Positions 20,056 through 57,257 of a DNA stretch of 64,000 nt are shown piece after piece. The stretch spans positions 35,431,121 through 35,495,120 of the forward strand of contig NC_052511.1 of NCBI RefSeq assembly GCF_014356525.2, in the 5' to 3' direction. Source of the DNA: Nilaparvata lugens. Lineage: Eukaryota; Arthropoda; Insecta; Hemiptera; Delphacidae. The position numbers and the translations under genes are program-made. The notes under the pieces were generated by a model. It searched no databases. It was not told the origin of the DNA and worked only from the letters and a program-made list of their open reading frames with translations. Position 1 is the first letter of the stretch, and each line of letters begins with the position of its first letter.

Positions 20056-20075
20056 GCGAGATTGAAGGGATGAAA

Positions 20076-21572: not shown

Positions 21573-21711
21573 GATCGCGGAAACGCGAGCGCGAACGAAA
21601 ATTGAAGGCCGCGCGAAAGTAGGTCACTTCGATTGCATAAAGACGGCGGATTTTAACCGAAAATTTGATGCAATGTTTTGTTCCACTTAAATACCGTGAA
21701 CAATCAACTGC

Positions 21712-23236: not shown

Positions 23237-23336
23237 NNNNNNNNNNNNNNNNNNNNNNNNNNNNNNNNNNNNNNNNNNNNNNNNNNNNNNNNNNNNNNNN
23301 NNNNNNNNNNNNNNNNNNNNNNNNNNNNNNNNNNNN
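23237..23336. other. Assembly gap of exactly 100 N
   Basis: A run of 100 N, the usual placeholder for a gap of unknown length. The frames shown across it are meaningless. The flanking duplication suggests the true gap length may be negative (overlap). Confidence 0.98.
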
Positions 23337-24889: not shown

Positions 24890-25720
24890 AACGGGAATTC
24901 TTCCAGGTGGCATTCTATCCAAATGACTGCACCAGTTGCGTCTATTTTGAATAATTCTTTCACGTAGAGGAGCAACCAATAAACCCTGTCTTATATCAGT
25001 GTTTCTTATTCTATCAACTCTAGTGCAGCCAAATACACTGCTTAGAAACCTCATTTCTGCAGCTTGAATTCGACTGTTCATTCTACGTGTGTGAATCCAA
25101 TTCTCACTTCCATATAGGAGAGTCGGAACTGCAATGGTATTATAGAACTTTATTCTGGTTACTTGTCTTGATTTAATTTGGAGGTTTCTATGTATAGTGC
25201 CACATATTTTCTGAAACTTTGAAATTTTATTGTATACATCAATATCTGTATCATATGTTACATCATTACCAAGATAGTTGAAATTTTTCACTTGTTCTGT
25301 TAATTTTCCGTTCAATTCTATTTTGGTTCTAATTGGATATTTTCCTTTGAATGCCATTGATTTGGTTTTTATAACTGATACTCTCAAATTGTAATTTTCA
25401 GCAACTCTGTCCAACATGAAAACTGATTTTTGTAAGGAATCTTCATTTCTCTGAATTATTACTAAGTCGTCTGCATACATACTTGAATTTACAAAACTAT
25501 GGGTTGAGAGCTGTAAACCTGAGTCCACTAAAGTTTTCCATGTGCTTAACATGTCGTCAACATAAATATTGATTAAAGTCGGCGATATACGACAACCTTG
25601 TCTAACCCCTTTCTTTATGCCAATGGCATCGGTCAAACCCCCCCCCCCTTTACTTGCAGACGAATTGTAGTATCCATGTAGAGATGTAGAGGCTCTGTAG
25701 AGATTTCCTCAATAAGTATA
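24760..25720 (-). mobile_element. LINE reverse transcriptase, 5'-truncated copy
   Basis: The minus strand has an open frame of 276 codons (24806-25636). It contains GVRQGCRISP (residues 10-19), the catalytic MYADDL (YADD at 54-57), a thumb region and the C-terminus GKRDVGRPRKRWVPEQ. A (TGATGA)n 3' tail lies near 24770-24783. Upstream, LYMDTTIRLQVK is in another frame; the break falls in an 11-base C run at 25638-25648. No endonuclease domain is present, so the copy is truncated. The termini resemble RTE-type elements and the fragments at 8150-8330 and 62075-62245. Confidence 0.85.
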
Positions 25721-25975: not shown

Positions 25976-26345
25976 TCCTCTATTCCTCTCACTCTTATCA
26001 AAATAAAAGCAGGATATATGCAGTGTAAATCATCTGTTTACCCGTGAGCTCTATACTATTTATTTATATAAAATAGATACCATAGTCCAGGTGTGAATTT
26101 GTTCTATTATGAAGTGTTTATTCCTTCCACTCTTATTAGAATAAAAACAGGATATGCGGTGTAAATTATCTATATCAATTTCCCGGGAACTCAATTCTCC
26201 TATCAATTGATTCATATGCGATAGATACCATAGTCCAGGTGTGAATTTATTCTATTATGAAGTGGGAAATAAGAGTGGAAAATTGGTTAATTGTGGTAAA
26301 ATAATCCGTATCAATTTCCCGCCAACTCAAGTCTCTTATCATGGA
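25976..26345 (+). promoter_or_regulatory. Duplicated upstream module of peptide gene A
   Basis: Two tandem units of about 145 bp (25976-26120 and 26121-26268) share AGATACCATAGTCCAGGTGT and TTCTATTATGAAGTG. A third, partial unit (26268-26345) shares ATCAATTTCCCG and CAACTCAA with unit 2. The last unit leads into TCTTATCATGGAGTAGAAAA, a box also found upstream of gene C and, more diverged, of gene B. The repeats end about 90 bp before the ATG and are candidates for multiplied enhancer sites. Function is inferred. Confidence 0.5.
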
Positions 26346-26391: not shown

Positions 26392-26434
26392 TATAAAATA
26401 TATCGCATCTTAGCAAGTGGTTACAGTGTTCGAA
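26392..26434 (+). promoter_or_regulatory. Core promoter of gene A
   Basis: TATAAAA begins at 26392 and the initiator-like TTACAGTG carries its ACAGT at 26422, a spacing of 30 bp. Gene C has the same pair at 36356 and 36387. The predicted 5' UTR is only about a dozen bases. Confidence 0.65.
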
Positions 26435-28764
26435 ATGAAGCTGGGACTATTCTTCTTCCCCATTCTTCTATTCTCCATCTCCTTCTTCCTGGTGGAAGCG
26501 TCTCCAGCCGCCGATGATGAGGCACAAATGTTGGAGGAGATGATGAATCAATGTGAGTTATTCCTATCGATTTATTCGATTCTATCAATTTGAAATGTTA
26601 ATTTTCAAAATTCGTTGGCTTTCAAGATTTTTTTGATTTTTAAGATTCGACTATTTGCTGTTGTTTTCTTCTGTTTTCCAACTATTATTTTTTTTTCTTT
26701 CAAATAATTTGGGGGAGGATCAACAGATACAGCACAAGACAGTTCCTCCCCCGAATTTCGATTCATTAAAATAGTCTGGAAAATAGGTTACGCTTTCTTC
26801 ACTTTTTGAAAGTTTGTATAGTATTCTCACCAAACACTTGAAACAATAAATTTTGAATTTAGAAAGAATAAGATCCAAATTAATAACAAAATTCATTTCA
26901 CCCAGCACTCAATACTATGTATCATAGTGAGGTCCAAAAATTATGATGGCAGTTGGGAAAGATAGTAGAACAGCGTTGTCGATTCTCTGCCTCATTTGAA
27001 AGATGGCTGATACCGGTATATTTTATGTAATTTAACTGAGTTAATTCTTGTCCAAAATGATCGTTTATGCTTCAAGAGAATTATATTTTCAATGATTAAA
27101 TAACAAGTTTTCATAATATAAGATTTAAGTTATAGTTTTCATGTGTTTCTTGTTCATTTTCGGCAGTTTCTCATTGCAGAAGTCAATTCAAATTTATTTA
27201 ATTCAACACACAATAGTTCAGTATACGATAGAAATCAAAATACAGGAAAATATCAATCTATATATATATAAGCGAAATGGCACTCACTCACTGATTGACT
27301 GACTGACTCACTCACTCACTCACTCGCAGAACTAAAAATCTACCGGACCAAAAACGTTCAAATTTGGTAGGTATGTTCAGTTGGCCCTTTAGAGGCGCAC
27401 TAAGAAATCTTTTGGCAATATTTTAATTCTAAGGGTGGTTTTTTAGGGTTTAAAGTTCGTCTTTTAGCATGTATATTCTTCTTATTCTCTTAATTATAAT
27501 TGAAATAAGGCCATACCATATGTTAATATAGAACTATAATTCAGATAGAGTGCCTCTTCGAAACAGTTGTTAACTGGTAACTAAATTAATAATTTTGTCA
27601 GGTTGGCATTAAGTTGAGTTGACTTTGTTAGGTTGGCACCAAGTTGAAGATTGAAATGCATTTATCGCGGAAAAATTGATTGGGCACTGCTACTTCAATC
27701 AGAGCTATTTCTGGGAATATTATATTACTAGCCGTCAGGCTCGCTTCGCTCGCCATATCCGTTTAGGCAGACGTCAAGTCTGGACCCCCGACTGGATCGT
27801 CCTAACATATGATAAAAATGCTCAAATGAAAACTGCAGGCGAGCGAAGCGAGCCTGCTGATCTCATTCTTGGACGATCCAGTCGGGGGTCCAGGGGGCTC
27901 CGCCCCCTGGCTAGACGGATATGGCGAGCGAAGCGAGCCTGACGGCTAGTCAATAATAAAGGAGAGACCTATTTTCACAATCATACGTACGGGATTGGAA
28001 ATTCACGAATGACCCATCATCACATCTGAACTACTCAACTGATTAACTTCAAATTCTGCATATCGTTTTCTCAATTTACCGAGGATTGTTGTAGGCCTAT
28101 TTAAAATTCTTCAAGATTTCAGTGGTACGTCAATTTTAAATTATATTTTTGCAGAGCACGGGTTCCCTGCTTATTACGGATAAATATAGAAAAAACAGGC
28201 TTTATGTTTGGATGAGCCGAATGGAATTGAAGGAAAAAAAATACCTAGCCAACTATGGTCTACTAAGTAAAAGGCTGGTAGAGGGTAAAAGCGAGGAATG
28301 TGGTGAAAAGGGAAGAATTAGATTAGATTAGATGAGAGTTCATTATCATGTATGTTATAATATACATGTATAAGTATACTGGCTTGTCTTTTTTTTAGTG
28401 GACCTCACTATGATACATTGCGGAAATAATTTTAAAGAGTACTTAGATTTCTATTTTTATTTGTGTACTGGCTTATACACTAACTAATGGCAATTTTTCA
28501 TGAACATTGATGTTGCTAACCTTGTCCATCAGTTGACAACGCAGATAATGCTACCCTTTTCTAGCTTTGCAACGTTGCTAGATTGTGTTGTAACAACGTG
28601 TGAAAATAATTAAATAACATTCTGTTTCAGTGTCCCAGGATGCCTTACCGGTAAGACAAGAGCGATCAAGTGCGTTCTGGGGGAGACGCAGATGGAATCA
28701 TTGGGGATCACGTTGGAGACCACGAGATGATCCTAGGAAAATTGTTGACTATCGACCAGGTTAA
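26435..28764 (+). CDS. Peptide gene A: small secreted cationic peptide precursor, 83 aa, two exons
   Basis: Exon 1 is 26435-26552 (ATG, 39 codons plus 1 nt), donor GTGAGT. Exon 2 is 28631-28764, acceptor TTTCAG, stop TAA. The intron is 2078 bp, phase 1. Residues 1-22 form a hydrophobic signal peptide (MKLGLFFFPILLFS..., likely cleaved after VEA). Residues 23-39 are an acidic propiece (DDEAQMLEEMMNQ). Exon 2 starts LSQDA and becomes basic and Trp/Arg-rich (FWGRRRWNHWGSRW, residues 55-68), with no Cys. RQER (48-51) and GRRR (57-60) are possible processing sites; the C-terminus is RPG. Estimated net charge after the propiece is about +6. AATAAA lies at 28937. Paralogues B and C support the model. 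The role is unknown: antimicrobial, effector or neuropeptide-like. Confidence 0.8.
26700..26905. repeat. Fragment of dispersed repeat K in gene A intron
   Basis: CAACAGATACAGCACAAGAC followed by CCTCCCCCGAATTTCGATTC resembles the motif ACAGGCACAGCCCAAAACTG plus TTTCTCCCCCGAATTTTGAT found at 35.05, 41.46, 58.2 and 59.2 kb. It is probably a retroelement 3' end. Confidence 0.5.
27257..27949 (+). mobile_element. Non-autonomous Helitron, 693 bp
   Basis: It begins TCTATATATATA directly after an A and ends ...GACGGCTAG directly before a T: the Helitron hallmarks (5' TC, 3' CTAG, insertion between A and T, no target duplication). GGCGAGCGAAGCGAGCC near the end gives the terminal hairpin. The last ~220 bp also fold back: CGTCAGGCTCGCTTCGCTCG at about 27735 is inverted near the 3' end, with GACTGGATCGTCC and GGACGATCCAGTC inside. 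No Rep/helicase is encoded. A second copy lies at 56270-57074. Confidence 0.85.
28320..28385 (-). mobile_element. Short retroelement tail
   Basis: GAATTAGATTAGATTAGATG followed by TATCATGTATGTTATA is the reverse complement of the tail module found in the 2.4-3.4 kb pyrimidine tracts. Confidence 0.6.
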
Positions 28765-28936
28765 CTTCAAAACACGTCACAAATACTTTTATAAATAGGA
28801 AACTAGGAACAAAAAACCTTCAATAATTTTTTTAATGTATTTATTCATACAGAAATATCGAGAATGATTCTCGATCACCAATTAATTTTATCCTGTTTCT
28901 TCCGATATTGTTGTACGTTCAAATGTCCTGATATTG

Positions 28937-28942
28937 AATAAA
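28937..28942 (+). terminator. Polyadenylation signal of gene A
   Basis: AATAAA lies 173 bp after the gene A stop codon. It is the first canonical signal downstream. Confidence 0.6.
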
Positions 28943-29394
28943 CATTTTGATTGCTAATAAAAAAAGATTTGTTTTGTTCACATGTTTTGATTGAAGAAGC
29001 ATACATCTTTTCAATTATTCGCACACCACTCCAGTATCCTAGAAAATTAGTGTTGAAATATTGCCAACTAGTCCAGGCAATGAATGGTTAGAAAAAGTTG
29101 CAAAGGGAAAATTTTGTAATACAATTTTTCGACTCGCATTTCTTTTTTGGATAGTGAGGAGGTGAACATATCAAAAGTCTCCACTGTGTGAAGGGGGTCG
29201 ATGTGATACATAGATACCATTTTTTGGTTTTCCACAATATATGTACCCTTTTTCAAAATTTTTACTCAAAAAATGTTCCAACAGTAATGTCGTTATCAAG
29301 TTCTGATAATGTAATGGATGTGAGGACTCAATAGAAAATTACAGTTACATGTCGTTAAAAATAAAAAAGCTTCATTTTCAGTGTCATGATTAAG

Positions 29395-30235
29395 TGTGAA
29401 ATAGTATATTTCGCACCTAGGGCCGAAAATGAGACTTCTCCGGCTCGAAATCGGTTTTCAAGTCCGAGGCCGTAGGCCGAGGACTAGAAAAGATTGAGAG
29501 CCGGAAAAACATTTTTGCCCATGGTGTGAACGCTATTTTTCGCCACACAGAAAAATATACAATATATATATATGAGAATAATAATTGTTCATTAAGCACT
29601 TCCGAAAGCAAAAGTGGAAGGTCATAGCTCTAGCAAATCTGAGGTAATCTGAATATCAGGATATTGTCCAAGTATTTTTATTTTTTATTCTGATTTGTCT
29701 AAATAACCTAAAAGATTATGTTCAATTATGTGGGAGGTTGTGTTTATACTGTATTATCCTTTCAAATAAGATGACAATAAGATGATATTATTATAAATGT
29801 TTTAATTATTGAATAATAAACACAAATAATGAAAAGTTTTCTGATCACCTGTTTTAGCACACTTGAAATTTGGCCAATCTGAATGTCAACGTCAACAATG
29901 CTTGTTGTCATCGACTTCGGAAGTTTAGGTTAGAAGTTCTATCCTACTCTGAAAATATAATTTGAATAGTTTATAATATCTCATTTTTATTTCATTCATC
30001 CAAATGAAATGATAGTATCTTATTGCAAAATTCTTTATTCAATTCTAGAAGCATAAACTGATTCCGTTTCATAAACTATTTTGTTCACATCAAATCAGAA
30101 TCAGCTGACTTCAAGGCTTTTTTACAGCCCTAGGGCCGTAAAAATTTTACCGGCCTGGTCAGAAAACAATCAATTTCGGCCTCCATATGACGAACGTAAA
30201 CCAGCTCATTACATCCAAGTGGGGCGAAAAAGCTC
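29395..30235. mobile_element. Dispersed repeat I, copy 2
   Basis: The same order of sequence as 14440-15545, from ATAGTATATTTCGCACCTAG to TTTCGGCCTCCATATGACG, but without the internal duplication. It carries an extra CCGAGGCCGTAGGCCGAGGA hairpin near 29464. It lies between genes A and B. Confidence 0.7.
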
Positions 30236-30506
30236 ATTCCTACCAGTCAATAGCTTCTAACGAATTCTTCATACATTAAGGAAATAATCTTTTTATCCTT
30301 CCCATAAAACAACCATTTTTCAAGTGTGAAAAAGCTAATTTCTTCCAGCCAATAGTTCATAACGAATTCTTGATATATTAAGGAAATAATCTATTCACCC
30401 TTCTCTTGAAACAACCATTTTCTTCCATTATTTCACTCAATTATTTTATCAGCCACTCGAAGTGTCATTCTTATCATAGATAGATGAAAACGAAAGTTTG
30501 TGGTCT

Positions 30507-30624
30507 ATCAATTTCCGTAATATTCGTTCTCGTATCATTTATGTAATAGAAAATAGAAGAATGTGGTCAATGTCTCCTATTATTAGATACAGCATAACAT
30601 AGTAGCAGGTCACAGTACCCAAAA
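30507..30624 (+). promoter_or_regulatory. Upstream region of gene B
   Basis: ATCAATTTCC (30507-30516) then CGTATCATTT and ATAGAAAATAGA resemble the gene A and gene C modules in the same order. The TATA position has only TATTATTA (about 30578), with the initiator-like TCACAGTAC near 30610, about 30 bp further on. This promoter looks weaker or more diverged than those of A and C. Confidence 0.45.
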
Positions 30625-33559
30625 ATGAAGATGACAAAGGACTTCTCTCTCATTCTACTGTTCTCCATCTTGTTCTTTGTGGTCAAAGCTTCTCCGTCCA
30701 CCGTTGAAGAAACGAAAATGATGGAGGAGATGATGGATCAATGTGAGTTATTTCTATTTTTTTTTGAATAAATTTATTCCAATTGCTGATTTTCAGCATA
30801 CATTGGCTTTATAATAATATATTCTACCACTTCTCTCCTTCACAATTCACGTTGTTTACAACGTCTTCAACTAAATTATTTTTTATATTCCACTTTCCAT
30901 ATTGATTTCCACGGAGGATATAGAGTAACAATGAGAGTTATTTCTATCAATTCATTTGATTTTATCTATATGTGCCGGTTGCACAGAAGCCGGTTGAATT
31001 TTAACCGTGATTAATTCCACGAGAACCAATCAGAGAAGGCGTTATTGAAAAGACAGCTTCTCTGATTGGCTCTTTTGGAATTAATCACGGTTAAAATTTA
31101 ACCGTCTTTTGTGCAACCGGCCCTAAGAGTTGTTGATTTTCAGCATCTATTCGCTTCATAAAATCGACCAACTTCCTCCTTATCAAATCCTCAATGTTAA
31201 CAACGTATCCTTCCCTCTTTACCATTTTCCAAGCTCTTCGATTGAAAGTGAATTGTTTGGCTCAACTCACGTGACTCAGGTCGAGAAAAGACTCGACTCT
31301 AGTCGAGAGCATGACGTGTTTTCAAATGGTGACAGTCATAGAGACTAGAGTCGACTACACAAACACATGCTCACGACTAGAGTCGAGTCTTCTCGACCTG
31401 AATCGCGTGAGTGTGTGTTAAGCCCTGATTACCTAGAATTTATTACATGAAGGTTACGGTTATTTAGTTACTTGGTCACTTATATCGCTCACAAGAAAAT
31501 CATAGTATTATTCTCTTTTAGTCATAATAATTTTTTTTACAATTATTTTATGAGTTTTCATAATTAGAATGAAATATTTTGTTGGTTAATTATTAATTCT
31601 AAATTGTGTAAAGACGATCTGGCAACATAGCAAAGCGAGAAAGAGATAGCGCTATCCGCTTTGTTGAATGATAGACAAGGATAGCAATACTAATGGTAAT
31701 CGAACACTGCCATTAAAAAGTGGACCTCACTATAATACCTACACATGCATTGTTGCCATTCACCCTAGATCGGTTCGAATTGAGAAAAGATGCAACGCAT
31801 CGTGAGAATCTGTTTAAGCATACCATAAAACTCAATAGTTCATTGAATGTTGCAACGTCGCATAGTCACTGGATTTTTTCACACTTCGAGACAGAAAGTC
31901 GTAAAATAATGAGCCATTTGAAACATAGACGAACTAAGTTTGTAAGTTGTTAATTTTGTCTTTTTTCTGAAGGTCTATCGAAATATGATATTTAATTATA
32001 TTATTCTTATAGACCTTCGTCTTCAGATGAAGGTAGATCTTCATCATTATATTACTAGCTGGCCCGGCGAACTTCGTACCGCCAAATAGTTTAATGCATC
32101 TCACGACAAACTTTAGCTGGATGCACACCTGAGGAGGCGCGTTGAGGCATTTTATTTACATTTATTTCTGTGTGTGGCCAGCTCACAAATCTTCTCCCAT
32201 AAGGATTACATGTAAACTTAGAAGGACCGTAGAAAAGAGTTCTGAAGTCGGATTAAAAATTTGATAGGCCATAACCCTGGTCCTGAACATAACGAACACA
32301 ACTAAAAAAAATCATCAAATTCGGTGCAGACATAAAAAAGTTATTGAATGTCAAAATTTGAGGCTCGATTTCTATTTATATAGATAATATCGGAGGACCG
32401 AGCTTCGCTCTGAAGTACAAAAGCATAAAGAATGTATTACGAAAGAAGAAATTATAATATATCTATAGTTCATACAGAAATGTTCATGTAATAACAGTGG
32501 ATTGAGATTAATTCCTAGAGGAATGCAACAAATTCTCTCATAAAGGCCCGGTTGCACAAAAGCCGGTTAAATCTTAATCCTGATTAATTTCACGTGAACC
32601 AAATCAAAGAAGATCATTTCTAAAAGATGGCTTCCCTGATTTGTTCTACTAGAATTAATCAGGATTAAAATTTAACCGACATTTGTGCAATCGGCACTAA
32701 GTACCAGCTGATTGAATGATTATAAAAGTTCAACAGCTGAGTCATAACTTTGTCTCAGTACTACAGACATCCACTCGCTCACTCACTTCCATTATCAACA
32801 GACATCGAAATTATCAGTTGTTTTTACAAAAATGAGCAATGTCCTTCAGCGAGTTTTTCCAGGGATGAGATCTAGTGCAATCGAATTTTTATATTATAAA
32901 CCTACAATGTTTTGAATTTCGTGAGAATCGATAGAGCCGTTTTCGAGATCCAGTTATAATGACAGTATTTAATCAATTTTGGTTTTGCTATCCCTGTCTA
33001 TCATTCGACAAAGCGGGTGGTACTATCCTTTTCTAGGTCCAAAACGATGACAATTATGTTTTTGACAGTGTAGAAATATAATTAATTAATGCAGAGAATC
33101 GGCATCGCTATTCTTCTATCTTTATCCACTACCATTATAACGTGGACCATACTATAGCTAAAAGACAACTCTATTCATCCACTCAATAATTGATACTGAT
33201 TGCTCACTTTATCTTACAAATTTCAAGTATATCCCCTATAAAAATCTTCTTCACGTAATATTGGATAGATAGATTGAATCAGAAATTAATCAAAAACATG
33301 AGTTTTGAGCCAATTTCGCATGAAAAACGGCTGAAAATTCATGAGATACACGTGAAAATTCCAACATTTTATTTCAGTGTCCCAGGATGCATCACGGGCA
33401 AGACATGTGCGATCGAAGCGGCAAGAACCTGACCGCCAAGAGGAACGAGCGGTCTACGGACCGAACTGGCGTGCAACAATTGCGGCCACGTCACGACGAC
33501 CTCATTATACTAGATTCAGACCTCGGATGTATATTTCTAAAATACGGCGTGGATTCTAA
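30625..33559 (+). CDS. Peptide gene B: small secreted cationic peptide precursor, 99 aa, two exons
   Basis: Exon 1 is 30625-30742 (donor GTGAGT), exon 2 is 33378-33559 (acceptor TTTCAG, stop TAA); the intron is 2635 bp, phase 1. The signal peptide covers residues 1-22 (FSLILLFSILFFVVKA, then SP). The acidic propiece is 23-39 (VEETKMMEEMMDQ). Exon 2 starts LSQDASRARH and contains RSKR (51-54), a furin-type site; the rest is Arg-rich with aromatic residues and ends KIRRGF. No Cys; estimated charge beyond the propiece is about +11. Exon 1 matches gene A at 22 of 39 residues; exon 2 matches mainly in its first dozen. Exon 2 is the longest of the three and lacks GRRR. The Arg/Pro/aromatic richness would also suit an antimicrobial peptide. 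Confidence 0.78.
30972..31126. mobile_element. Palindromic MITE D, copy 1 (gene B intron)
   Basis: The arms are GTGCCGGTTGCACAGAAGCC and TTTTGTGCAACCGGCCC, with TTAACCGTGATTAATTCCAC and AACCAATCAGAGAAGG inside. The unit is a near-perfect 155-bp foldback. Copies with TAA next to the ends elsewhere (e.g. 44.4 kb) suggest PIF/Harbinger-type mobilisation. Confidence 0.8.
31257..31425. mobile_element. Palindromic MITE (gene B intron)
   Basis: ACTCACGTGACTCAGGTCGA and TCGACCTGAATCGCGTGAGT are inverted, with ACTCGACTCTAGTCG / CGACTAGAGTCGAGT inside. No coding potential. Confidence 0.75.
31598..31740. mobile_element. MITE family E fragment (gene B intron)
   Basis: Contains AGCGAGAAAGAGATAGCGCT, GAATGATAGACAAGGATAGC and the terminus AGTGGACCTCACTATAAT. 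The same parts occur in reverse order and orientation at 52296-52420. Confidence 0.65.
32052..32385. mobile_element. Retroelement-like fragment (TAGCTGGCCCGGCGAACTTC)
   Basis: It begins with TAGCTGGCCCGGCGAACTTC, an opening I recognise from RTE/SINE-type insect repeats, and ends in TTTCTATTTATATAGATAAT. No frame is conserved. It lies directly before repeat B copy 6. Confidence 0.5.
32383..32955 (+). repeat. Dispersed repeat B, copy 6, split by a MITE
   Basis: It opens TATCGGAGGACCGAGCTTCG and ends near AGAGCCGTTTTCGAGATCC, as in the other copies of repeat B. MITE D copy 2 (32546-32699) interrupts it. Confidence 0.65.
32546..32699. mobile_element. Palindromic MITE D, copy 2
   Basis: GGCCCGGTTGCACAAAAGCC and TTTGTGCAATCGGCAC are the ends of a 154-bp foldback, with ATTAATTTCACGTGAACC / TACTAGAATTAATCAGG-type arms. 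It is inserted in repeat B. Confidence 0.8.
32953..33165. mobile_element. MITE family E, degraded copy (gene B intron)
   Basis: TATAATGACAGTATTTAATC, CTATCCCTGTCTATCATTCG and the right end CATTATAACGTGGACC match the family E elements near 52.3-52.7 kb. Confidence 0.65.
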
Positions 33560-33727
33560 ACATTGATAACAGGCTTTTAAAATCTTCCTACAGAGGAAAA
33601 TAAGAATAGAATCCCTGCGAGGAAATTACTAATTTCTGCTTAAGACAGCAACAATATGAGTATTTATTATACAAAATTATTAAACTATTTTCATATTCAT
33701 TGTATCCTGAATCATGTGGACTGCGTG

Positions 33728-34435
33728 TTAAGGCTGTGCAAAGGCTGAAAATAAACTTTCTACTGGTGATATTTTCCAAAGTTTTTCGATTTGTATATCA
33801 TCAAGCTATCAAAATAAAATAGTTTTTTCAGGTAAAAATTTTCTTTCGATCATTACTTTTTGAGATATGAGCGCCTAAAGTTTTAATTTTCGAGACAGAA
33901 CATTTAAAATTCGGTAAGAGATAAATCCATGAAGTTCAAAGGATGAATTCTTCATGATATTGTAGATTGAATGGAACAAAAATTTACTAAAAATATGAAA
34001 TGAAATAAAATGAAAAAATTCTCTATTAGGCGGAGTTAGGACTAGGGGAAAATATCAATTTTTTAGAAAGTTATTCAATTTACCAAAAATGATCAGAGAT
34101 AACTATTAGTTGAATTAATTTTGGTCACTTTTTGTAAATTGAGCAACTTTCTCAAAAATTGATATTTTTGAATTTTTTTGTTCTATTCAAGCAACAATAC
34201 CATGACGAATTCATCCTTTTAATTTCATGGATTCATCTCTCACCGAATTTGAAATGTTTTGTCCCAAAAATCTGAACTTTAGGCGCTCATATCTCAAAAA
34301 GTACCGTAATGATAGAAGAAAAATGTTTTCCTAAAAAAACTATTTAATTTTGATAGTTCGATAGTTTACAAATCGAAGAAACTTTGAAAAATATCACCAG
34401 TAGAGAGTTTATTTCTAGCCTTTGTTCAGCCTTAA
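33728..34435. mobile_element. Large foldback element ending in TTAA, downstream of gene B
   Basis: About 700 bp that reads as one long imperfect palindrome: TTAAGGCTGTGCAAAGGCTG at the left and GCCTTTGTTCAGCCTTAA at the right, with AGATATGAGCGCCTAAAGTT / ACTTTAGGCGCTCATATCTC inside and the centre near 34080. TTAA at both ends fits a piggyBac-type target site. It begins 169 bp after the gene B stop, and its first AATAAA (33749-33754) is the first such signal downstream of gene B. Confidence 0.75.
33749..33754 (+). terminator. Candidate polyadenylation signal of gene B (within foldback)
   Basis: The first AATAAA after the gene B stop codon (190 bp). It lies inside the foldback terminus, so the transposon may supply the 3' end. 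Confidence 0.4.
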
Positions 34436-34964
34436 GAGAGCCGATCCCAAATTATAATGGGAATAAGAAGAAGATTAAACTATTAATCATCAAACTGAAA
34501 CTTCTAAACTTCTAAAACTTCTGGGAATAAGAAGAAGATTGAACTATTAATCATCCAACTAAAACTTCTATCATCACTTCAAAATATTCTAAGGCAATAC
34601 CACATTGGTTGTAGAAACAACTGATACAAGATAATATTGACTGGATTACAGGTTAAGTTCGCCACCTCACTGCACTTGAACTCACACGATTTTTATAAGG
34701 CTCACTTGATTCAACTCAGTTGAACCTTACTTATATGGTTCAAGGTTTTTAATGAAGATATCCAAGCAGAGCTGAGAATATACATTTTGAATGAAAAAGT
34801 TACAGAATACTGAATTCAACGGAAGAGAATGTCTGCAGCAAGGTTTCCCCTACGCGTATTCAATATTATCAACAAGAAGGCAGAAGATCAATCATTGTTT
34901 GGAGGCTTCTTAAGAGATGCCAATAATACTAATGTATTGAATTTGAATTTATTAACTCGTATAA
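34436..34964. other. Non-coding stretch with a short tandem duplication
   Basis: GGGAATAAGAAGAAGATT occurs at about 34459 and 34524 with flanking ACTATTAATCATC, a 65-bp duplication. No gene is seen. Confidence 0.4.
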
Positions 34965-35660
34965 TAACTAATATCGAGGCACCAAGCTTCGCTCGTTAAT
35001 TATTTATTGATAGACAGAACTCAATTCTTTAAAATGATTGGGTGAGTACTAACAGGCACAGCCTAAAGCTGTTTCTTCGCCGAATTTTGATTCATACACT
35101 ATAAATATTCCAAAAAGTAGGTTATGTTCAATACACTTGAATTCAGGTCAAATTTTCAGTCCAAATATTTGAAAACATAAAAGTTCTAATTAAGATTGTT
35201 TACAATCTAAATTGAATTACAAAATAACACTCACTAATCACTTAGAACTGTAAAATAATTATTAACTTTGAATATTATGATATACCATCTCATGTCAACA
35301 AATCAGATTATTTTGATCGAGTCAATTAAAATTTCTAGATAATATTTCTCGCGAGATACGGTAAGCTAATTGATTACACAGCTGATCTCCCACACAGGCA
35401 CACGCATCTTCTGTTATCGACAGACGTCGAAATTATCATCTGTTTTTCCAAGGATTGATTATCCTTTTCATGTCCTTCAGCGAGTTTCGCCAGGGATGAG
35501 ACCTAGTGCAATCGAATTTTTATATCATAAACCTACTATGTTACAAATTTCGTGAAAATCGTTAGAGCCGTTTTCGAGATCCGTTGAACATAAATAACCA
35601 GATAACCAGATAATATAAAAATATAAACAGACATACATAAATCGCTCGCTTCATATAATA
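34965..35660 (+). repeat. Dispersed repeat B, copy 1
   Basis: It opens AATATCGAGGCACCAAGCTT and ends ATCGCTCGCTTCATATAATA. It contains TTTCGTGAAAATCGTTAGAG and CCGTTTTCGAGATCCGTTGA, found in all copies. An internal segment ACAGGCACAGCC (repeat K) is shared only with copy 3, so copies 1 and 3 are closest. The element class is unclear; no domain is encoded. Confidence 0.75.
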
Positions 35661-36220
35661 GGATAATAAGCTGTTTGTAAGTCAAAACAGGCAATAGCCT
35701 ACATTTTGCACGTAAGATGATGATGATGATGATGATTTTTAGATTCTGTTAGATTTGAAACAATCTTAATAGAGGAAAATCCTAAGTACATTTTTCACGA
35801 TAAGATTATGTTTTTGAAATAACTTTAAGCCCCCATAAAGGAGCGTAGAATGCATTTTCGCACAGATATGAGCTCAGTCAGCTTTATTTACATCTGAGTG
35901 ACTCTTTCCAATTTTCCATAGTTTGAAGAGTACAGTCATGTATGAGGCATTGAAAATGGCATAGACAGCCATCATAATAATCTGATCATTATAATACTAA
36001 TTGTGTGAAAAAGTTGCTAGGTAATACTCCACCATTTCCGCATGGAATTCTAAAAATATTCTGTTTCATATCTAATTAATCAAGTGAATAACATATCCAA
36101 TTTCTTTCCTTCTTAAATAATTAGATTTTCCTCACATACCACTTCCACTAGAATGAAAATTTCTTGTTCCATTTATTGGTTTTATCATGAGTTTGGTATG
36201 AAGAATTGAATTTAGTGGAG
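35661..36220. other. Non-coding stretch with short (GAT)n
   Basis: Six ATG/GAT trinucleotides at about 35717-35735, otherwise nothing recognised upstream of gene C. Confidence 0.4.
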
Positions 36221-36398
36221 GAATTTCCTTAACACTCTACTATCTTATCATGGAATAGAAAAAAATTTACAATTTTGTGGACAACTTATCTATATAATTG
36301 AATTTCTGTAGCACTCAACTCTCTTAAAATTGAGTAGCTCGCGGTTAATGAATCTTATAAAAAGCATTGTTTTCCAGCAAGTGGATACAGTGATCAAA
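36221..36398 (+). promoter_or_regulatory. Promoter region of gene C
   Basis: GAATTTCCTTAACACTC then CTTATCATGGAATAGAAAA matches the gene A module. The core has TATAAAA at 36356 and ATACAGTG with ACAGT at 36387, a spacing of 31 bp, almost as in gene A. Confidence 0.6.
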
Positions 36399-36870
36399 AT
36401 GAAGCTGGGACTATTCTTTTGTCCCATTCTCCTATTTTCCATCTTCTTCCTCGTAGTAGAAGCTTCTCCTACCGCTGATGACGAGGCCCAAATGCTGGAG
36501 GAGATGATCAATCAATGTAAGTCTCTATCAATTTTTTATTTCAATTCAATATGTTTATTTATTCATCTATGCATATACAAAAATACAATCCAGGTAGAAA
36601 CAACAGGCATTCGCCCAAAACTGCTCTAAATTTGGAATACACAGTCTAGAGTCTAGAGGTTATGTAAAAATGATAACTTAATTCACACACTATTTTGTGT
36701 CCAAAAATAGGTATCTACTACAATTTTGATTTTATCAGATTAATTGATTTCAAATTAATTAGTTATTTAATTGTTATGCTCAGCTAGGAATCCATCATCA
36801 CCATTATTAATGTTACAATCTTTTCCTTATTCTACAGTATGTATTATTATTATTATTATTATTATTCAAC

Positions 36871-36923
<53 letters not shown>

Positions 36924-39900
36924 TTATGGAAATAGTAATAATCATATTATATTATGCGAGCAATTTCTGTATAACATCTGTTTATATTTTTATATCTGGT
37001 TATCTGGTTATTTATGTTCAACGGATCACGAAAACGGCTCTAACGATTTTCACGAAATTTAGAACATAGGTTTATGATATAAAAATTCGATTGCACTAGG
37101 TCTCATCCTTGGGAAAACTCGCTGAACGAAATTAAAAGGATAATTCATCCTTGGCTGAAGCAGCTGAGACTTTCGTCGTCTGTGGATAGTAAAAAGTGAG
37201 CGAGTGATTCTGTGGAAAATCAAAATATTGCATCCCCGAAATTCATTAGCTGACGTATAGCTAGCTGTAAAATATAAACACGATCATTTTAGAGAATATT
37301 GTGTTCTGTTTATCAATAAAAAAAAAAAAAACGAGCGTGGCTCGGTGCCCCGATATTCAATATTCACTGGGAAGTGGTTATACTCTATCTTGAGAGTTCA
37401 AGTCAACGTTAAGGTTCCATCCATTAATCCAGTAAATCAAAGTGCACAAAAGCCGGTTAAATTTTAATCGTGATTAAAATATTCAACAGACTTCGGCCCG
37501 GCTGCAAAAAAGGCAGTTAAATTTCAATTGTGATTATTTTCACGAGACCCAATTAGGAAAGGTACCTATTTAATAAGACGACAAGGTCTTCTTAGAAGCT
37601 GGTTAAATTTTAATCGTGTTCAATATTTCACAAGAACCAATCAGAGAAGGTCTTTTTACGGCTTCTTTGATTGGTTCTCGTGGAATTAATCACGATTAAA
37701 ATTTAACCAGCTTTTAAGAAGACCTAGTCGTCTTATTAAATAGGTACCTTCTCTGATTGGGTCTCGTGAAAATAATCACGATTGAAATTTAACTGCCTTT
37801 TTTGCAGCCGGGCCAAAGTCTGTTGAATATTCTAGAATGAAGTAAATCTTCAATCATTGACGATGATACTCTGATCTTTTAAACTTCAATTCTGTGGGGA
37901 TAGAACATGGAACTATTGAAATAAAGAGAACAATCTAATATTGGACTTCATTTCATTACGTTGTCTAGAAAAATATTCTAGATGGGATAATAAAAAGTAT
38001 TGGAACTGTCCTGAATTCGGCAGATTTTTGGGCGGGTTTAGAATCGACATCGGCTTTCTTCGTTTGCAATCAGAATTTCCCGTTGACAAAAATTATTAAA
38101 GCAGCAGTTATCATGTTATTTTGACATCGCTTGCTGTGATTTGAGGTACAAATTTTATTTTTATTCGGAAATTTTCGACTGTTATCCATTAGCCTATTCT
38201 GGGATTATGGGCGGAGCCTATCGTTTACTTTTCGTCTCACATGTCAAAAGTCTAAAGGCTACCGATTCTCATCAATATCTAATCAGTTTCTCCTCCATTA
38301 TGTTCTATCATAGAGAAACAATAGCTTAAGTAGATATCCCATGGTATAGGGCGTTCTTGTTGCAACTTTTACTGTTATCTCAAGCCGATTACCGTTGATT
38401 ATTGTCGATTTTTACTGTTTTGTTGGGGTGAGAGTGTATGAACGGCACAATATGAGAGACTACCAGTGTCACACAGATTCACGGGGAAGAACTACGTGAA
38501 CTATCGGCTTCAGATAACAGTAAAAGTTGCGACATAAACGTCCTATACCATGGGATATCTACTCACGCTATTGTTTCTCTATGGTTCTATGTACTTCACC
38601 GTTGTTATTGCTACTACTCCTAACCACAGAATACATACCAATGAACTAGTGTTCTTTACTCAGTGACCAAACCTATCCGCTATGGGCACCTAGATGGAGG
38701 GGGTTTCAAGAACTTCGGAAGACGTAATTTTCATCAATTCATCAAAAAGACCACAATTTTAAACAGGGAGGATAGGGATTCTGCATTGAAGACGCCAAAT
38801 AGCAGTTATAATAGCCAGAGTTCAAAACAGAGAAAGGTCGAGAGAAAATACTACAGTATATTGCTATTACAGTAACTATATAACTATGGTTACACTATGG
38901 ATACACTATGGTTATATAGTTACTGTAGGAACTATGAGTTATTAATTGCATGCGCCATTGCTTGTGATTATTGACCGAGCGATGTGAGGTCTAAGATTCA
39001 AGTCGACGGTTTGGCATTTCTCTTAATGTTTAAATGTTTGAATGTATAAATGTTTATATGTTGCGCATTTACGGCGAAACGCGGTAATAGATTCTCATGA
39101 AATTTGATATTGTTATTTGTATGTTCCTTTTTTAATTGCGCGTCGACGTATATACAAGGTTTTTTGGAAATTTTGTATTTCAAGGATAATATAAAAGGAA
39201 AAAGGAGCCTTCTTCATTCGTCAATATTAGAGTAAAAATCAGACTATAGAATTATTCATCATAAATCAGCTGACAAGTCATTACACAGATGTGTGGAGAA
39301 GCCAGTCTATTGTTGTATTTCCATAAGGTCTATAGTTTCAATCAGGTACTTGTGGATGAGAATACTGTGTGAGGTCTACTGTTCAAAGAACGGCTGCACT
39401 TTAGTATATGGGCCGCGGAATCTAGCATTGAGACCTACATAGATCGATAGAGGAGATCAAGACGAGATCAACCATGTATAACATTGTTGTCGATTTCCAA
39501 GGATTAGCTGAAAAAACATGGCGGAAAGTTCAAATTTGTTATATCAATTTTTTATTTTTAATAATTTTTTTATGGCTAAATTATGTTTAAAACTAGTGCA
39601 ATCTCATGTAAAATTCGACGAGGAATCCAATGAAACTAATTTCAGGTTCGTAACTTCAGTAGTTTTTGAGATATTGCAAAAAATGTGCAGAAAAATGCAA
39701 ATTTTTTTTGCTTTAAAAAAGGTTAACTTGTTTTCATGATAATTAATAGGTATTTTAAACTATTGGATTTAGTAGAATGATAAATTCTAAAGAGAAAATG
39801 TCAAGTCACTTGATAGCCTAAACTCAAAATTGTTCGAGATATTTGGGAAAATAAAAAAAATTGCACACTCAATACTCTTCAATTCTCAAATTTAATTTTT

Positions 39901-42900
39901 TTTTTTTTTACTACTTTTTGTGACTAAATTGGCTTAATCTCATTGGGATTTTTGCAGGGAATTCATAAAAATAGATTTGAGGTTAGAAATTTCTATAGAT
40001 TATTAAGATATTTGGAATAAATACAAGAAAATGTAGTATTTTAGCTTTAGAAGAGTTCAATATGTTTGCATAGGCATAGTGCAGACCGATATTGAGGATC
40101 ACATTTTATTCAGCTTCCAATGCAATTCAGAAGCTTTAAAAGATTGTAAAAATAATTGAATCAAATCAAGCTTTTCCTAACCTACGCTTTTTCCCAATCT
40201 TTTCCTAACCCAAGCTTTCCCTAACCTAAGCTTTTCCCAATCTTACCTTTTTTCCTAATCTAATCTTTTCCTAACCTTAGATTTTTCCTAATCTAAGCTT
40301 TTCCTAAACTAAGCTTCCCCTAACCTAAGCTTTTCTCAAACGTAGCTTCCCCTAACCTAAATTTTTCCTAACCTAATCTTTTCCCAATCTTAGCTTTTCC
40401 TAACCTTAGATTTTTCCTAACCTAAGCTTTTTTCTAACCTAAGCTTTTCCTAACCTAAGCTTTTTCTAATCTAAGCTTTATCTAACCTAAGCTTTTCCTA
40501 ACCTAAGTTTATTCCAGACCCAGCCTTCTCTAACCTAAGCTTTTCGTAACCTAAAAGTTTTCTAATCTGAGCTTTTCCTAACCCAAGCTTTCCCCAACCT
40601 AAGCTTTTCCCAAACCCAGCTTCCCCTAACCTAAGCTTTTCCTTATCTACGTTTTCTCAACCAAGCTTTCCTTAACCTGAGCTTTCCTTAGACCCAGCTT
40701 TTCAGAGTTCATTGTTATAAATACGGGTAACGATTGAAAATAACTCTTTACATAAAAAATACAATACTCACATTAACTTCCTCATCCATTAACGAGTCAC
40801 TAGTTACCGGAAATATTCGTTAGAACTGCAAAATTGACGAGAGCGGTAACATAGAGGTCCGTTCCACTTGAAATTCGCGACGCGACTGAGGTGAACAAAG
40901 GCAGAGGTGACCGTCAAAATTTGACAAGTTATGACAAGCGACGTGCTTACCTGACGGCCGGCACACGGTTCATGGCTACCGCGTGTCATCCACCGGTTGG
41001 CATCGTAACGGCGCTTGGCGGCACATTTGAAAATTTCAAAATTACTGCCGACTGAGTTTCTACACCTTTAGATAGTTATATTGTCGAGCATTGTTGAATG
41101 ATCATTTGAATACCGAAGGAAAAGAAGAAGAAGAAGAAGAACAAAAAGGAGAAAATGAAAAAGAGAGAGAGATAGGTAAAGAAGAAATAATAATGGAGCC
41201 AGCCGATATTGAATGGGCTGCAAAGCTAGCTGCGCAGTAGCTTAATTTGCCATATTTTTGTAAGCTTGGTTTGAAATTATTCATAGCCTCAACATCTCAA
41301 AAATGCGGAATTCAAATAATATTATAAGATAAAATCAAATGATTGAATTGAATTATCCTAAGTATTATAATATTAATATATATAAATATCGGGGCACCGA
41401 GCTTTGCTAGTTATTTATTTATTGATAAACAGAACTCGTTTCTTCAAAATGATTGAATAAGGACTAACAGGCACAGCCCAAAACTGTTTCTCCCCCGAAT
41501 TTTGATTTATACACTATAAATCTTCCAAAAAGTAGGCTACGTTCCATACACGAGTTCAAGTGAAATTTTCAGTCCAAATATTTGAAAACATAAAAGTTCT
41601 AATTTAGATTGTTTACATACCAAATTGAATAACAAAATATCACTCACTCTCACTAATCACTTGGAACTGTAAAATAATGATTCACTTTATATATTATGAC
41701 ATATACCATCTCATGTCAAGAAATCCGATTACTGTATTTTGATTCGAGTCAATTGAAATTTCTAGATTTCTCGCGAGAAACTGTAAGCTAATTGATTACA
41801 CAGCTGATCTCCCATACAGGCACACGCATCTTCTGTTATCGACAGACGACGAAATCATCATCTGTTTTTCACAGGATGAATTATTCTTTTCATGTCCTTC
41901 AGCAAGTTTTTCTAGGGATAAGACCTATTGCAATCGAATTTCGATATAACAAACCTACTATATTCCAAATTTCGTGAAAATCGTTAGAGCCGTTTTCGAG
42001 ATCCGTTGAACAGATAAGAAGATAGCCAGATAACCAGATATAAAAATAGGAAAATATAAACAGATAATATACAGAAATTGCTCGCTTAATATAATAGGAT
42101 ATTATTTTCTATCAAATTTATAAAAATAATTCAATAGATGATTTGAAAAAATGGTTTATTATAAATTCGAATCCAAGTACCCAATCCAAAATTCTAGTCG
42201 ACGGTTTGTCATTTCTCTTTAAATGTTTAAATGTTTGAATGTTTATATGTTGCGCATTTACGGCGAAACGCGGTAAAAGATTTTCATGAAATTTGATAGG
42301 TATGTTCCTTTTTTAATTGCGCGTCGACGTATATACAAAGTTTTTGGAAATTCTGCATTTCAAGGATAATATAAAAGGAAAAAGAAGCCTCCTCCATTCG
42401 CTAATATTAGAATAAAAATCAGACTATAGAATATTATTCATCATAAATCAGCTGACAAGTGATTACACAAATGAGTGGAGAAGCCAGTCTATTGTTGTAT
42501 TACCATAAAGTCTATAGTTTCATTCAGGTACTTGTGGATGAGAATACTGTGTGAGGTCTACTGTTCACAGAACTACTAGTTATTGTGATCGGGTGGATTA
42601 TTCACCCGAAAGCCGATCATTTTCAGGTTATAATTAAAGCTCAGGTTACCACTCGAGTATCTACAACCATATATCTTATATCCTTGAAACTACACGAGTA
42701 CAAGATGATTTTTTAATTGGTTACCTAACTCGCAATGTCTATCTGTAACTATACAAATCTATAGCTGTAGTTGTTAACCCTATTATCTTCTGTGAGTAAA
42801 ATAGGTTAGATTTCCGGAGCTCATTGTTATAAATACGGGTAACGATCAAAAATGACTCTTTACATAAAAAATACAATACTCACATTAACTTCCTGATCCA

Positions 42901-44268
42901 TTAACGAGTCACTAGATACCGGAAATGTTCGTTAGAACTGCAAAATTGACGAGAGCGGTAAGAGAGGTTCGTTCCACTTGAAATCCGAGCTATTATTAGA
43001 GACATTAATTGAGATATTAATTATAGGAGATTTCTCTGGTAATAGGTGAAAGAAGAAGTAATAATCGAAGCCAGCTGATACTGAATGGGCTGCAAAGCTG
43101 TTTAATTATAATTCTTGTCATAGTCATTCAATTTCAGCTGTTTTACATCCTTGGAATCAAGCCGGTAAACAGCTGATTGTAGTACAAATAAACATATGAT
43201 TCTCATTACAGCATACTATACTGTAATAAAATAATATGTTTTCTTTAAAGTCGAGTATGTTTCTTAGTACAAAAACCGCCTTTTAGCGCTCTAGGTGGAA
43301 GTTTTGTCAACTACAATCAAGAAATTCCTGATTCGAAACTTGTAAACTAGGTTATGTTTATAGAATGCATGTAGTAATGTCAGCACAAGCAGGTAATGTT
43401 TTCTGTTTCTCAATTATTATTCTTTTCTAAATTATTATGACAAAAAATAGTGTAATACTTGGAAGTGAATGTCTTTTGCAGTGCTCAAATGGAATTCTAG
43501 TCTCGGCTAACGCCTTGACTAGAAACATCATTCTCGCCTGCAAAAGGCCCCTTCCTGTCCTTGTGATTTAAGATACTATAACTCTCGCCAAGCCGCAGCC
43601 CATGCGTAGTAGCCTACTTTATTGTAAGCTTGGTTTCAAATTGTTCATAACCTCAACATCTCATCAATGCGGAATTCAAATAATAATACAAGATTAAATC
43701 GAATAATTGAATAAAATTATCCCAAGTGTTCTCATATTAATATATAATATTATTTTCTATATAATTTATCAAAATGATTCAGAAAATAATAGATCATTTG
43801 AAAAAAATGGTTTATTGTATTGGAGTCCAAGTTACTACTCCAACATTCTTTCACCTCTCGCCTTCAAATTTCAGGGGTCATCATTTCAGATTCAATCTGT
43901 ATATGACAGTTGTTATTGGACAGTACATACTGGTAGTTCTCAAACAAATACTGAATTTTCAAGGATAGTTTTATGATGTTTACCTTTAAAATTTTCCATT
44001 CCTATGCCTATCAACAATATTCTCGAGCGGAGCTCGGTCGCCCGCTGTTTGACATAAGGAGAAATGCAAAACAAAATCTTAGACCTCACTTCGCTCGGTC
44101 AATTGAACAAGAATGACATGAAACTTGTCGCATTTTGTTTCAGTGTCCGAGGACGCTGCTACACCAAGGCATGGACGTTCCAGTCAGCTCCGAGAAAGAC
44201 GTTCCGCATTCATTGATTGGACTAAAGTGTATCATTTAATGAAAGGAAGAAGGAGACAAAAATCATAA
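36399..44268 (+). CDS. Peptide gene C: small secreted cationic peptide precursor, 80 aa, two exons
   Basis: Exon 1 is 36399-36516 (donor GTAAGT), exon 2 is 44144-44268 (acceptor TTTCAG, stop TAA); the intron is 7627 bp, phase 1, and swollen by transposons. Exon 1 matches gene A at 33 of 39 residues: signal peptide 1-22 (MKLGLFFCPILLFSIFFLVV, then EA) and acidic propiece 23-39 (DDEAQMLEEMINQ). Exon 2 starts LSEDAATPRH, then RERR (56-59), SAFIDWTKVYHLMK (60-73) and GRRR (74-77). This is the classical layout of an amidated peptide between basic cleavage sites, though no receptor or family is recognised. No Cys; charge beyond the propiece is about +7. The upstream in-frame extension to 36330 is rejected because it precedes the TATA box. 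Pairing of these two exons rests on order and splice phase, not on a transcript. Confidence 0.72.
36838..36922. repeat. (TTA)n then (TA)n microsatellite
   Basis: TATTATTATTATTATT followed by about 20 TA repeats in the gene C intron. Confidence 0.9.
36952..37365 (-). repeat. Dispersed repeat B, copy 2 (gene C intron)
   Basis: The reverse complement of repeat B: it starts ATTATGCGAGCAATTTCTGT and ends CTCGGTGCCCCGATATT, without the inserted repeat K segment. Confidence 0.75.
37439..37820. mobile_element. Nested palindromic MITEs of family D (gene C intron)
   Basis: A fragment of family D (AAAGCCGGTTAAATTTTAAT) lies at about 37447-37480. The outer palindrome runs about 37495-37818 (GGCCCGGCTGCAAAAAAGGC ... 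TTTTTTGCAGCCGGGCC). Inside, at about 37588-37727, is a second family D palindrome (GGTCTTCTTAGAAGCTGGTT ... AACCAGCTTTTAAGAAGACC). One copy evidently inserted in or near the centre of another. Confidence 0.75.
38301..38590. mobile_element. 274-bp palindromic MITE, copy 2 (gene C intron)
   Basis: The element 38309-38582 has the same length and arms as 830-1103. The flanks are TGTTCTAT (38301-38308) and GGTTCTAT (38583-38590), an 8-bp duplication with one difference. Confidence 0.8.
38591..38972. other. Intronic stretch of gene C
   Basis: A small palindromic patch near 38873-38935 (ATATAACTATGG / CTATGGTTATAT); otherwise nothing recognised. The short plus frame 38663-38875 lacks a domain. Confidence 0.35.
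38973..39425 (+). repeat. Dispersed repeat C, copy 1 (gene C intron)
   Basis: It opens TTGACCGAGCGATGTGAGGT and CTAAGATTCAAGTCGACGG, and contains TTACGGCGAAACGCGGTAA and TTGCGCGTCGACGTATATAC. Copies: 42185-42580 and 63525-63830, with an inverted end fragment at 44076-44106. Class unknown, no domain. Confidence 0.7.
39426..40167. other. Intronic stretch of gene C
   Basis: A/T-rich with nothing recognised. Similar phrases (GAGATATT, TTTTTGCA) repeat loosely from 39650 to 40080 and may be an old degraded repeat. Confidence 0.3.
40168..40706. repeat. CCTAA-containing tandem array (gene C intron)
   Basis: About 30 degenerate units of roughly 16-18 bp, consensus TTTTCCTAACCTAAGC. Most units carry CCTAACCTAA, the complement of two TTAGG telomere repeats, joined to AGCTTTTC. 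The array is absent from the paralogous segment at 42580-42818. Confidence 0.75.
40707..41385. repeat. Intronic duplicated segment, copy 1
   Basis: GTTATAAATACGGGTAACGA, CATTAACGAGTCACTAG and AATTGACGAGAGCGGTAA recur at 42818-42985. CAGCCGATATTGAATGGGCT recurs near 43073. GTAAGCTTGGTTTGAAATT recurs near 43625. The order is kept, so this is a tandem segmental duplication together with repeat C. Confidence 0.7.
41386..42107 (+). repeat. Dispersed repeat B, copy 3 (gene C intron)
   Basis: It opens ATATCGGGGCACCGAGCTTT and ends TTGCTCGCTTAATATAATAG. It includes the same inserted repeat K segment as copy 1 and is very similar to it throughout. Confidence 0.75.
42185..42580 (+). repeat. Dispersed repeat C, copy 2 (gene C intron)
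   Basis: It matches 38990-39390 from TAGTCGACGGTTTGTCATTT to GAATACTGTGTGAGGTCTAC. The first ~20 bp are missing. Confidence 0.7.
42818..43745. repeat. Intronic duplicated segment, copy 2
   Basis: Three blocks matching 40707-41385 in the same order, separated by unique sequence (43100-43620). No coding sequence. Confidence 0.6.
43746..44075. other. Intronic stretch of gene C upstream of exon 2
   Basis: Two overlapping short plus frames (43707-43976) show no domain and no splice support. CTCGAGCGGAGCTCGGTCGC near 44020 resembles ends of repeats B and C. Confidence 0.3.
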
Positions 44269-53035: not shown

Positions 53036-53042
53036 ATCTCTC

Positions 53043-57117: not shown

Positions 57118-57257
57118 CACATCGATGAGCTGCGACAACTTGAGCTTTATCTTGACGGTGAGGGCGTCTGAGACGTTGACGACTGGTCGCACCAGCTTGT
57201 TGTAGTTGGACAGGAGGTCGTCGTACAGTCGCTTTGCATCTGGGTTGCCTAGGCATC
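57118..57257 (-). CDS. Nicotinic acetylcholine receptor alpha subunit, one exon (partial gene)
   Basis: This 140-nt exon is bounded by a TTTCTCAG acceptor and a GTG/GTGAGT donor on the minus strand. It encodes 46 whole codons beginning [20 protein letters not shown] and ending LKLSQLIDV, the N-terminal extracellular segment of Cys-loop receptor subunits. Known insect nAChR genes have an exon boundary after (L)IDV, and the next exon would begin NLKNQ. The [20 protein letters not shown] wording is closest, from memory, to alpha3/alpha4. The protein is a ligand-gated cation channel at neuronal synapses and the neonicotinoid target. The signal-peptide exon (to the right) and the next exon (to the left) were not found, so the introns are long. 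Confidence 0.9.

Follow-up and report, generated by a model that had tools for sequence, protein, structure and literature searches.

The 64,000-nucleotide stretch of Nilaparvata lugens DNA analysed here (hereafter, the window) carries three genes, A, B and C, each consisting of two exons and predicted to encode a secreted cationic peptide. These genes, an exon relic within one of them and a receptor exon on the opposite strand were located as follows:

26435..26552, plus strand: gene A exon 1, encoding the predicted signal peptide and an acidic propiece
28631..28764, plus strand: gene A exon 2, encoding the propiece end, an R-x-x-R/S site (slash, predicted cut) and a 32-residue basic mature part ending in YRPG
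30625..30742, plus strand: gene B exon 1
30913..30972, plus strand: relic of an exon-1 end and intron start within the intron of gene B (local score 64)
33378..33559, plus strand: gene B exon 2, encoding a 48-residue basic mature part
36399..36516, plus strand: gene C exon 1
44144..44268, plus strand: gene C exon 2, encoding a basic mature part of 29 residues that has an amidation-like site, G-R-R-R, within it
57118..57257, minus strand: nicotinic acetylcholine receptor alpha-type subunit exon (PF02931, E 1.1e-8), ending in LSQLIDV

The coordinates of all six exons, the length of 118 nt for each first exon, the GT-AG borders and the phase-1 introns proposed in an earlier sequence-only reading were reproduced exactly, as were the precursor lengths of 83, 99 and 80 amino acids for A, B and C. 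The 22-residue signal peptide proposed for each precursor is a prediction, which fits the usual cleavage rule. An AATAAA signal was present within 500 bp downstream of all three genes. The score of the relic was matched at none of 1833 random places, and the maximum in 500 shuffles was 43.

Elsewhere in the window, pieces of LINE-type retroelements (reverse transcriptase, endonuclease and a PRE_C2HC zinc-finger-associated domain) were found on the minus strand at 17817-25708, and two direct copies approximately 2.2 kb apart at 51305-54970 were 96%–99% alike over the four stretches compared. Strand-skewed low-complexity arrays of TTCCTC, CCTCTT, CTT, AAG and AAGGAGAAG at 2158-4070, 8775-8986 and 13398-13832 give rise to long spurious open reading frames, and a AAGCTTTTCCTAACCT array occupies 40168-40685 in the intron of gene C. 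Rfam yielded no match at the gathering score within the window, which also contained no tRNA.

In searches within the window, the exon-1 peptides of A and C matched at 85% (E 3e-18), those of A and B 56% (E 4e-10) and those of B and C 54% (E 2e-9). A profile built from six database proteins only, none of them encoded by the window, ranked the six exons of A–C first to sixth when run on the window (70.2, 58.9, 33.8, 20.2, 14.5 and 14.2 bits), the top three being exon 1 of A (70.2), C (58.9) and B (33.8). The next window match reached 5.8 bits, and the best match in 30 shuffled windows reached 11.0 bits. Candidate upstream elements were found at the following positions:

26335..26342, plus strand: CTTATCAT (GATA-type) upstream of gene A, at -100
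26392..26427, plus strand: gene A core promoter candidate, TATAAA at -43 and ACAGT at -12
30470..30477, plus strand: CTTATCAT upstream of gene B, at -155
36244..36251, plus strand: CTTATCAT upstream of gene C, at -155
36356..36391, plus strand: gene C core promoter candidate, TATAAA at -43 and ACAGT at -12

The arrangement of TATA(A/T)A approximately 43 nt and ACAGT approximately 12 nt before an ATG occurred in the window only at A and C (2235 ATGs, both strands); upstream of gene B, ACAGT lies at -13 and TATAAA is absent. On the exon-1 matches, the profile ranks and this promoter arrangement, a chance origin of the resemblance among A–C was rejected; the earlier reading had already judged such an origin of the shared design hard to obtain. 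Exon-1 and exon-2 profiles built from nine proteins, A–C included, detected no further copy in 194 kb (70 kb to the left, the window and 60 kb to the right), where the remaining matches had E values of 0.19 or worse.

The receptor exon at the right of the window ends in LSQLIDV, and its reading frame is continued by the NLKNQIMTTNLWVEQ exon immediately beyond the left edge of the window; the next receptor exon (EYGG...WRPDIVLYN) lies 58 kb beyond the NLKNQIMTTNLWVEQ exon. The three ligand-binding domain exons are thus in order on the minus strand, in a gene traced by a motif scan of exons only, not as a full assembled gene. Because receptor exons lie on both sides of A–C, the exon order places the three genes, in antisense orientation, inside an intron of 57,167 bp that belongs to a nicotinic acetylcholine receptor gene of the alpha type. 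This nesting might be why annotation missed A–C.

Homology searches, with candidates scored at E values up to 10, identified relatives in 2/127, 6/1072 and 7/1903 cases. The seven relatives (P0001–P0007) comprised five N. lugens proteins from four loci (LOC120352620, LOC120352621, LOC120352622 and LOC111043204), one protein of Laodelphax striatellus (LSTR004288) and one of ‘bacterium LRH843’, all named either ‘uncharacterized’ or ‘hypothetical’. Among the scored candidates, relatives were therefore limited to two delphacids, N. lugens and Laodelphax, with the addition of a single contig of 400 bp deposited as bacterial. The latter entry (P0007) is a 64-residue frame that crosses the exon junction unbroken, as spliced RNA would, which points to contaminating planthopper cDNA; it agrees at its start with cassette I1 and at its end with cassette I5, both of the second cluster described below. 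P0007 is thus probably a planthopper-family peptide, apparently spliced, that reached a bacterial assembly through contamination. None of these searches gave A–C themselves among the known proteins, although the second cluster is annotated.

No relative was found among solved structures (best E 0.99), and an AlphaFold model of P0004 alone was uninformative (mean pLDDT 64.5). In trees based on the approximately 52 residues before the mature part, A–C grouped together, apart from the proteins of the second cluster (bootstrap 82 in IQ-TREE, 0.93 in FastTree), whereas the placement of the Laodelphax protein differed between the two trees. The literature search, outside of which lay subscription papers and supplements, revealed no paper naming the five family loci; nor was any found for ‘bacterium LRH843’ or a tryptophan-rich planthopper antimicrobial peptide, and no title among the matches listed for wider topics describes this peptide family.

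Whole-genome searches with protein A and P0005 located family members only in two clusters on the contig that contains the window (C8). At an E limit of 10, these searches gave 17 and 23 matches, of which the best candidates only were scored, and the member counts are consequently lower bounds; the matches off the two clusters (2 and 6) were weak, the best having an E of 0.0126 and 35% identity on C14. The clusters and the database proteins that map to the second of them are as follows:

C8 35.457-35.475 Mb: window cluster (A–C), as located by the genome search
C8 9.998-10.070 Mb: cluster 2, 25 Mb from the window cluster, with 6 leader exons and 10 second exons
P0005: leader a (E1a) joined to I3, skipping I1 and I2
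P0004: leader b (E1b) joined to II2, skipping I4
P0003: leader c (E1c) joined to I5
P0002: leader d (E1d) joined to V, skipping leader e
P0001: leader f (E1f) joined to W

The initial description of a tandem family of three thus holds for the window, but on the contig these genes form one of two clusters. In cluster 2, to which the exons of P0001–P0005 map, all 10 second (mature-peptide) exons are open and preceded by an AG acceptor, and 8/10 encode PWW near the end. The 118-nt exon 1 with a phase-1 donor is common to A–C and leaders a–e, while leader f is one codon longer. Four terminal exons follow leader a ahead of the next leader, and two each follow leaders b and c; P0005 and P0004 are annotated as isoforms X7 and X8 of one gene. 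Around cluster 2, the motif scan used for the receptor gene covered 110 kb and detected no receptor exon.

A 19-bp minisatellite of 6 to 65 copies stands in front of all eight type I and II exons of cluster 2, to which the scan was directed, leaving out the stretches with V and W. It ends approximately 10 bp or less from seven of these exons and 70 bp from the other one. Two forms of its unit, which resembles a splice acceptor, occurred 137 and 153 times (three mismatches or fewer) in the 110 kb around cluster 2, compared with none in the window. It is plausible that this minisatellite has served as a substrate for unequal exchange copying the terminal exons. A separate 22-bp minisatellite lies between cluster-2 exons (C8 10.000-10.030 Mb).

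The upstream elements differed in how widely they were retained. The TATA and ACAGT arrangement was present in 8/9 family leader exons. In the annotated models of P0001 and P0003, the start lies 51 nt further upstream and translation runs through the TATA segment; this casts doubt either on that TATA as a core promoter or on those models. Half of the six window copies of CTTATCAT lie upstream of A, B and C (P 5e-5, for a motif picked after being seen). Within 150 bp of the six cluster-2 leaders, CTTATCA was found only at b, leader e having N upstream; the octamer was therefore rejected as a family-wide element. In the 1-kb stretches upstream of the three genes, no kB-type GGGRNNYYYY site was found, and a looser 9-base form occurred once, 800 bp from A.

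All nine proteins (A–C and P0001–P0006) share a hydrophobic leader ending in A/S (slash again marking the cut) and an R-x-x-R-S motif followed by a variable tail. Their propieces have a net charge of -2 to -6, and the mature parts a charge of +4 to +14 in eight proteins and -1 in P0002. The pooled mature parts of these proteins contain 9.8% Trp, 22.2% Arg, 13.0% Gly and 9.2% Pro; Trp accounts for 12%, 2% and 3% of the mature parts of A, B and C, respectively, with one Trp each in B and C. A C-terminal Gly is the usual amidation signal, and it is encoded by 10 of the 13 second exons located in the genome (exceptions, B, C and V). Judging from this residue, the Gly-ended mature peptides are probably C-terminally amidated. 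In addition, G-R-R sites occur in A, C, P0003 and P0004.

Several established peptide classes were considered and rejected. Insect defensins are defined by a six-cysteine pattern, whereas the mature parts contain no cysteine in A–C and P0002–P0006 and two in P0001, which excludes this class; the earlier description of the peptides as cysteine-free holds for A–C but not for the whole family. Drosocin, apidaecin and pyrrhocoricin have a high Pro content with PRP repeats; Pro accounts for 9%, 8% and 0% of A, B and C and at most for 16% (P0001), and the proline-rich class was likewise rejected. A cecropin-like amphipathic helix was not supported for A, B and C, the hydrophobic moments of which were equalled in 0.87, 0.93 and 0.77 of 500 shuffles. 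The helical moments of P0001, P0004 and P0005, which are Gly- or Pro-rich peptides, were above most shuffles (0.01, 0.01 and 0.02). Cathelicidins, including indolicidin precursors, carry a cathelin domain, and this class was excluded because no Pfam family was above the cut-off in A, B or C.

Divergence was compared across leaders and mature parts. The leaders of A and C differed by dN 0.068 and dS 0.757 (omega approximately 0.09). Against the cluster-2 leaders a–e, over 39 codons per leader, which makes the values rough, and with leader f left out, omega was 0.16–0.24 for A, 0.10–0.27 for C and 0.82–1.01 for B. Among the cluster-2 leaders themselves, it ranged from 0.28 to 1.66, exceeding 1 in b/d (1.66) and b/e (1.23), both at dS 0.06. 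Since the values for B approach or reach 1 and those two pairs exceed it, leader constraint, as estimated from these codons, is not uniform. Among the type-I exons, of which there are five copies, all 10 pairs had an identical 35-nt propiece part, the 250-bp 3′ flank was 94%–99% alike and the intron flank 86%–99%, compared with 77%–99% for the mature part (gaps uncounted), in which the length changes leave every frame open. The mature part was less alike than the 3′ flank in 9/10 pairs and than the intron flank in 8/10; these are plain counts over non-independent pairs, given with no formal test. In contrast, the three type-II copies were 96%–99% alike in the mature part and 96%–98% in the 3′ flank and showed no mature-part excess, indicating that acceleration of the mature part is not general.

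The gene models, the relatives, the profile and the second cluster support the proposal of an unnamed family of secreted cationic two-exon peptides in a hemipteran, and we regard the family and its gene structure as secure, with very little room for doubt. Among the papers covered by the literature search, no earlier description of the window cluster, its nesting or the family architecture was found; the cluster-2 members are already in databases as uncharacterized proteins. A and C are likely to be working genes, and we are less sure of gene B.

The sequence-only reading left the role open among antimicrobial peptide, salivary or venom effector and hormone. The leader, the variable mature part, the R-x-x-R/S site and the Gly ends would favour a defence peptide. 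Host-defence peptide families show a conserved leader, a convertase site and a variable cationic tail, and are clustered and lineage-restricted; we see about an even prospect that A–C belong to a lineage-specific (delphacid) family of this kind. Each leader exon would have its own promoter, for which TATAAA and ACAGT are the candidates in A and C. The signal peptide encoded by the leader exon would be removed in the endoplasmic reticulum, the acidic propiece would hold the basic part inactive, and a furin-like convertase would cut at the invariant R-x-x-R/S motif. Exon 2 would thereby supply a basic mature peptide, usually Trp/Arg/Gly-rich, Gly-ended and probably C-terminally amidated, which most likely would bind and damage microbes like Trp/Arg-rich defence peptides. 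Diversity may have arisen through gene duplication in both clusters and, in cluster 2, also through the copying of terminal exons for the mature peptide downstream of a leader, one of which splicing would pick per transcript, as in the annotated models.

Counted in favour of this reading were the intact frames and splice sites, the shared promoter motifs, the restriction of the relatives to delphacids (the one contig filed as bacterial aside), the A/C leader constraint, the R-x-x-R-S motif, the charge pattern, the Trp/Arg/Gly content, the Gly ends, the type-I mature divergence, the annotated models that skip family exons and the unbroken frame of P0007. Counted against it were the absence of A–C from the listed proteins and of a 10-base kB site, the charge of P0002, the Trp-poor B and C, the shuffle-level helical moments, the type-II copies without acceleration, the uneven leader constraint and the P0001 and P0003 models translating the TATA segment. 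A more specific version can be offered only tentatively and is doubtful as a whole. Under it, planthoppers, to which only defensins have been ascribed, would possess a fast-evolving repertoire of amidated Trp/Arg-rich defence peptides in two clusters, and behind a cluster-2 promoter and leader exon there could be as many as four terminal ‘warhead’ exons to choose from. Eight of the 10 such exons would be entered via the acceptor-like 19-bp minisatellite, which would promote exon duplication, and splicing would choose the peptide.

Alternatively, the products might be salivary effectors, secreted into the plant from the salivary glands, with mature parts diversifying against host targets. This seems unlikely, as a cationic, Gly-ended and Trp/Arg-rich make-up is more typical of defence peptides, and neither salivary evidence for these loci nor a paper naming the five family loci was found, supplementary tables lying outside the search. 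Nevertheless, fast evolution and lineage restriction would fit this role, and many genes high in L. striatellus salivary glands are planthopper-specific according to the accessible part of one study (PMC9911632). A reading of the window cluster as a silent or decaying branch of the annotated cluster at 10 Mb is quite unlikely. The absence of A–C from the known proteins returned, together with the lack of TATAAA, the high leader omega and the exon-1 relic in gene B, would agree with decay, whereas all three frames and their splice sites are intact, AATAAA follows each gene, and A and C retain both TATAAA/ACAGT and low leader omegas, between each other as well as against leaders a–e.

Amidated neuropeptide-like signals are highly unlikely. 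The G-R-R sites offer a route to them, since a short W-amide could be released from the SSxFW-G-R-R with which A and P0003 start, and C has K-G-R-R-R, but signalling peptides are usually conserved, whereas type-I mature parts differ strongly between copies and no relative outside delphacids was found among the scored candidates, the one contig filed as bacterial aside. Equally improbable are seminal or accessory-gland peptides evolving fast under sexual conflict. In their favour, N. lugens does have a lineage-restricted secreted peptide of this kind, the accessory-gland peptide maccessin; against them, maccessin has six cysteines and no amidation signal in the accessible part of its description (PMC12077777), unlike the A–C family with its zero or two cysteines and mostly Gly ends.

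A defence role, if correct, would bear on current views of planthopper immunity. As far as the accessible part of the N. lugens immune inventory goes, defensins are the sole antibacterial peptide genes in the genome, and the lack of others is suggested to help keep symbionts (PMC3616906). The inventory of Sogatella furcifera, headed homology-based, gives in its accessible part two defensins, with well-known other families absent (PMC5090245). A homology-based inventory would miss the A–C family; if this family is microbicidal, the defensin-only picture would be wrong for N. lugens, and a candidate effector set would be gained for symbiont and pathogen control. Moreover, the 10-Mb cluster lends itself to studying how mature-peptide exons diversify while the leader in front of them stays fixed.

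Among known sequences, the proteins of the four N. lugens loci and LSTR004288 have the leader, R-x-x-R/S site and design of A–C. Most mature parts of cluster 2 are richer in Trp and Gly than those of A–C, and more than one terminal exon follows 3/6 cluster-2 leaders, whereas A–C lie in a receptor intron and did not come back from the searches as annotated proteins. Indolicidin- and tritrpticin-type peptides are likewise short, cationic and Trp/Arg-rich with an amidated or amidatable C-terminus, but they derive from cathelicidin precursors with no homology to A–C shown, and B and C are Trp-poor. In the accessible part of a study on venom peptide genes of Tetramorium bicarinatum (PMC10800049), these genes form tandem clusters with a conserved two- or three-exon structure, like A–C, and have GATA sites in their promoters and a TATA box in at least one gene. 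Their intron lies mostly inside the mature sequence, whereas that of the A–C family splits the propiece and so leaves the mature part wholly in exon 2. Defensins A and B of N. lugens, as described in the accessible part of the inventory (PMC3616906), are also two-exon products of approximately 100 residues, like the A–C family, but are cysteine-rich, in contrast to the zero or two cysteines of the latter.
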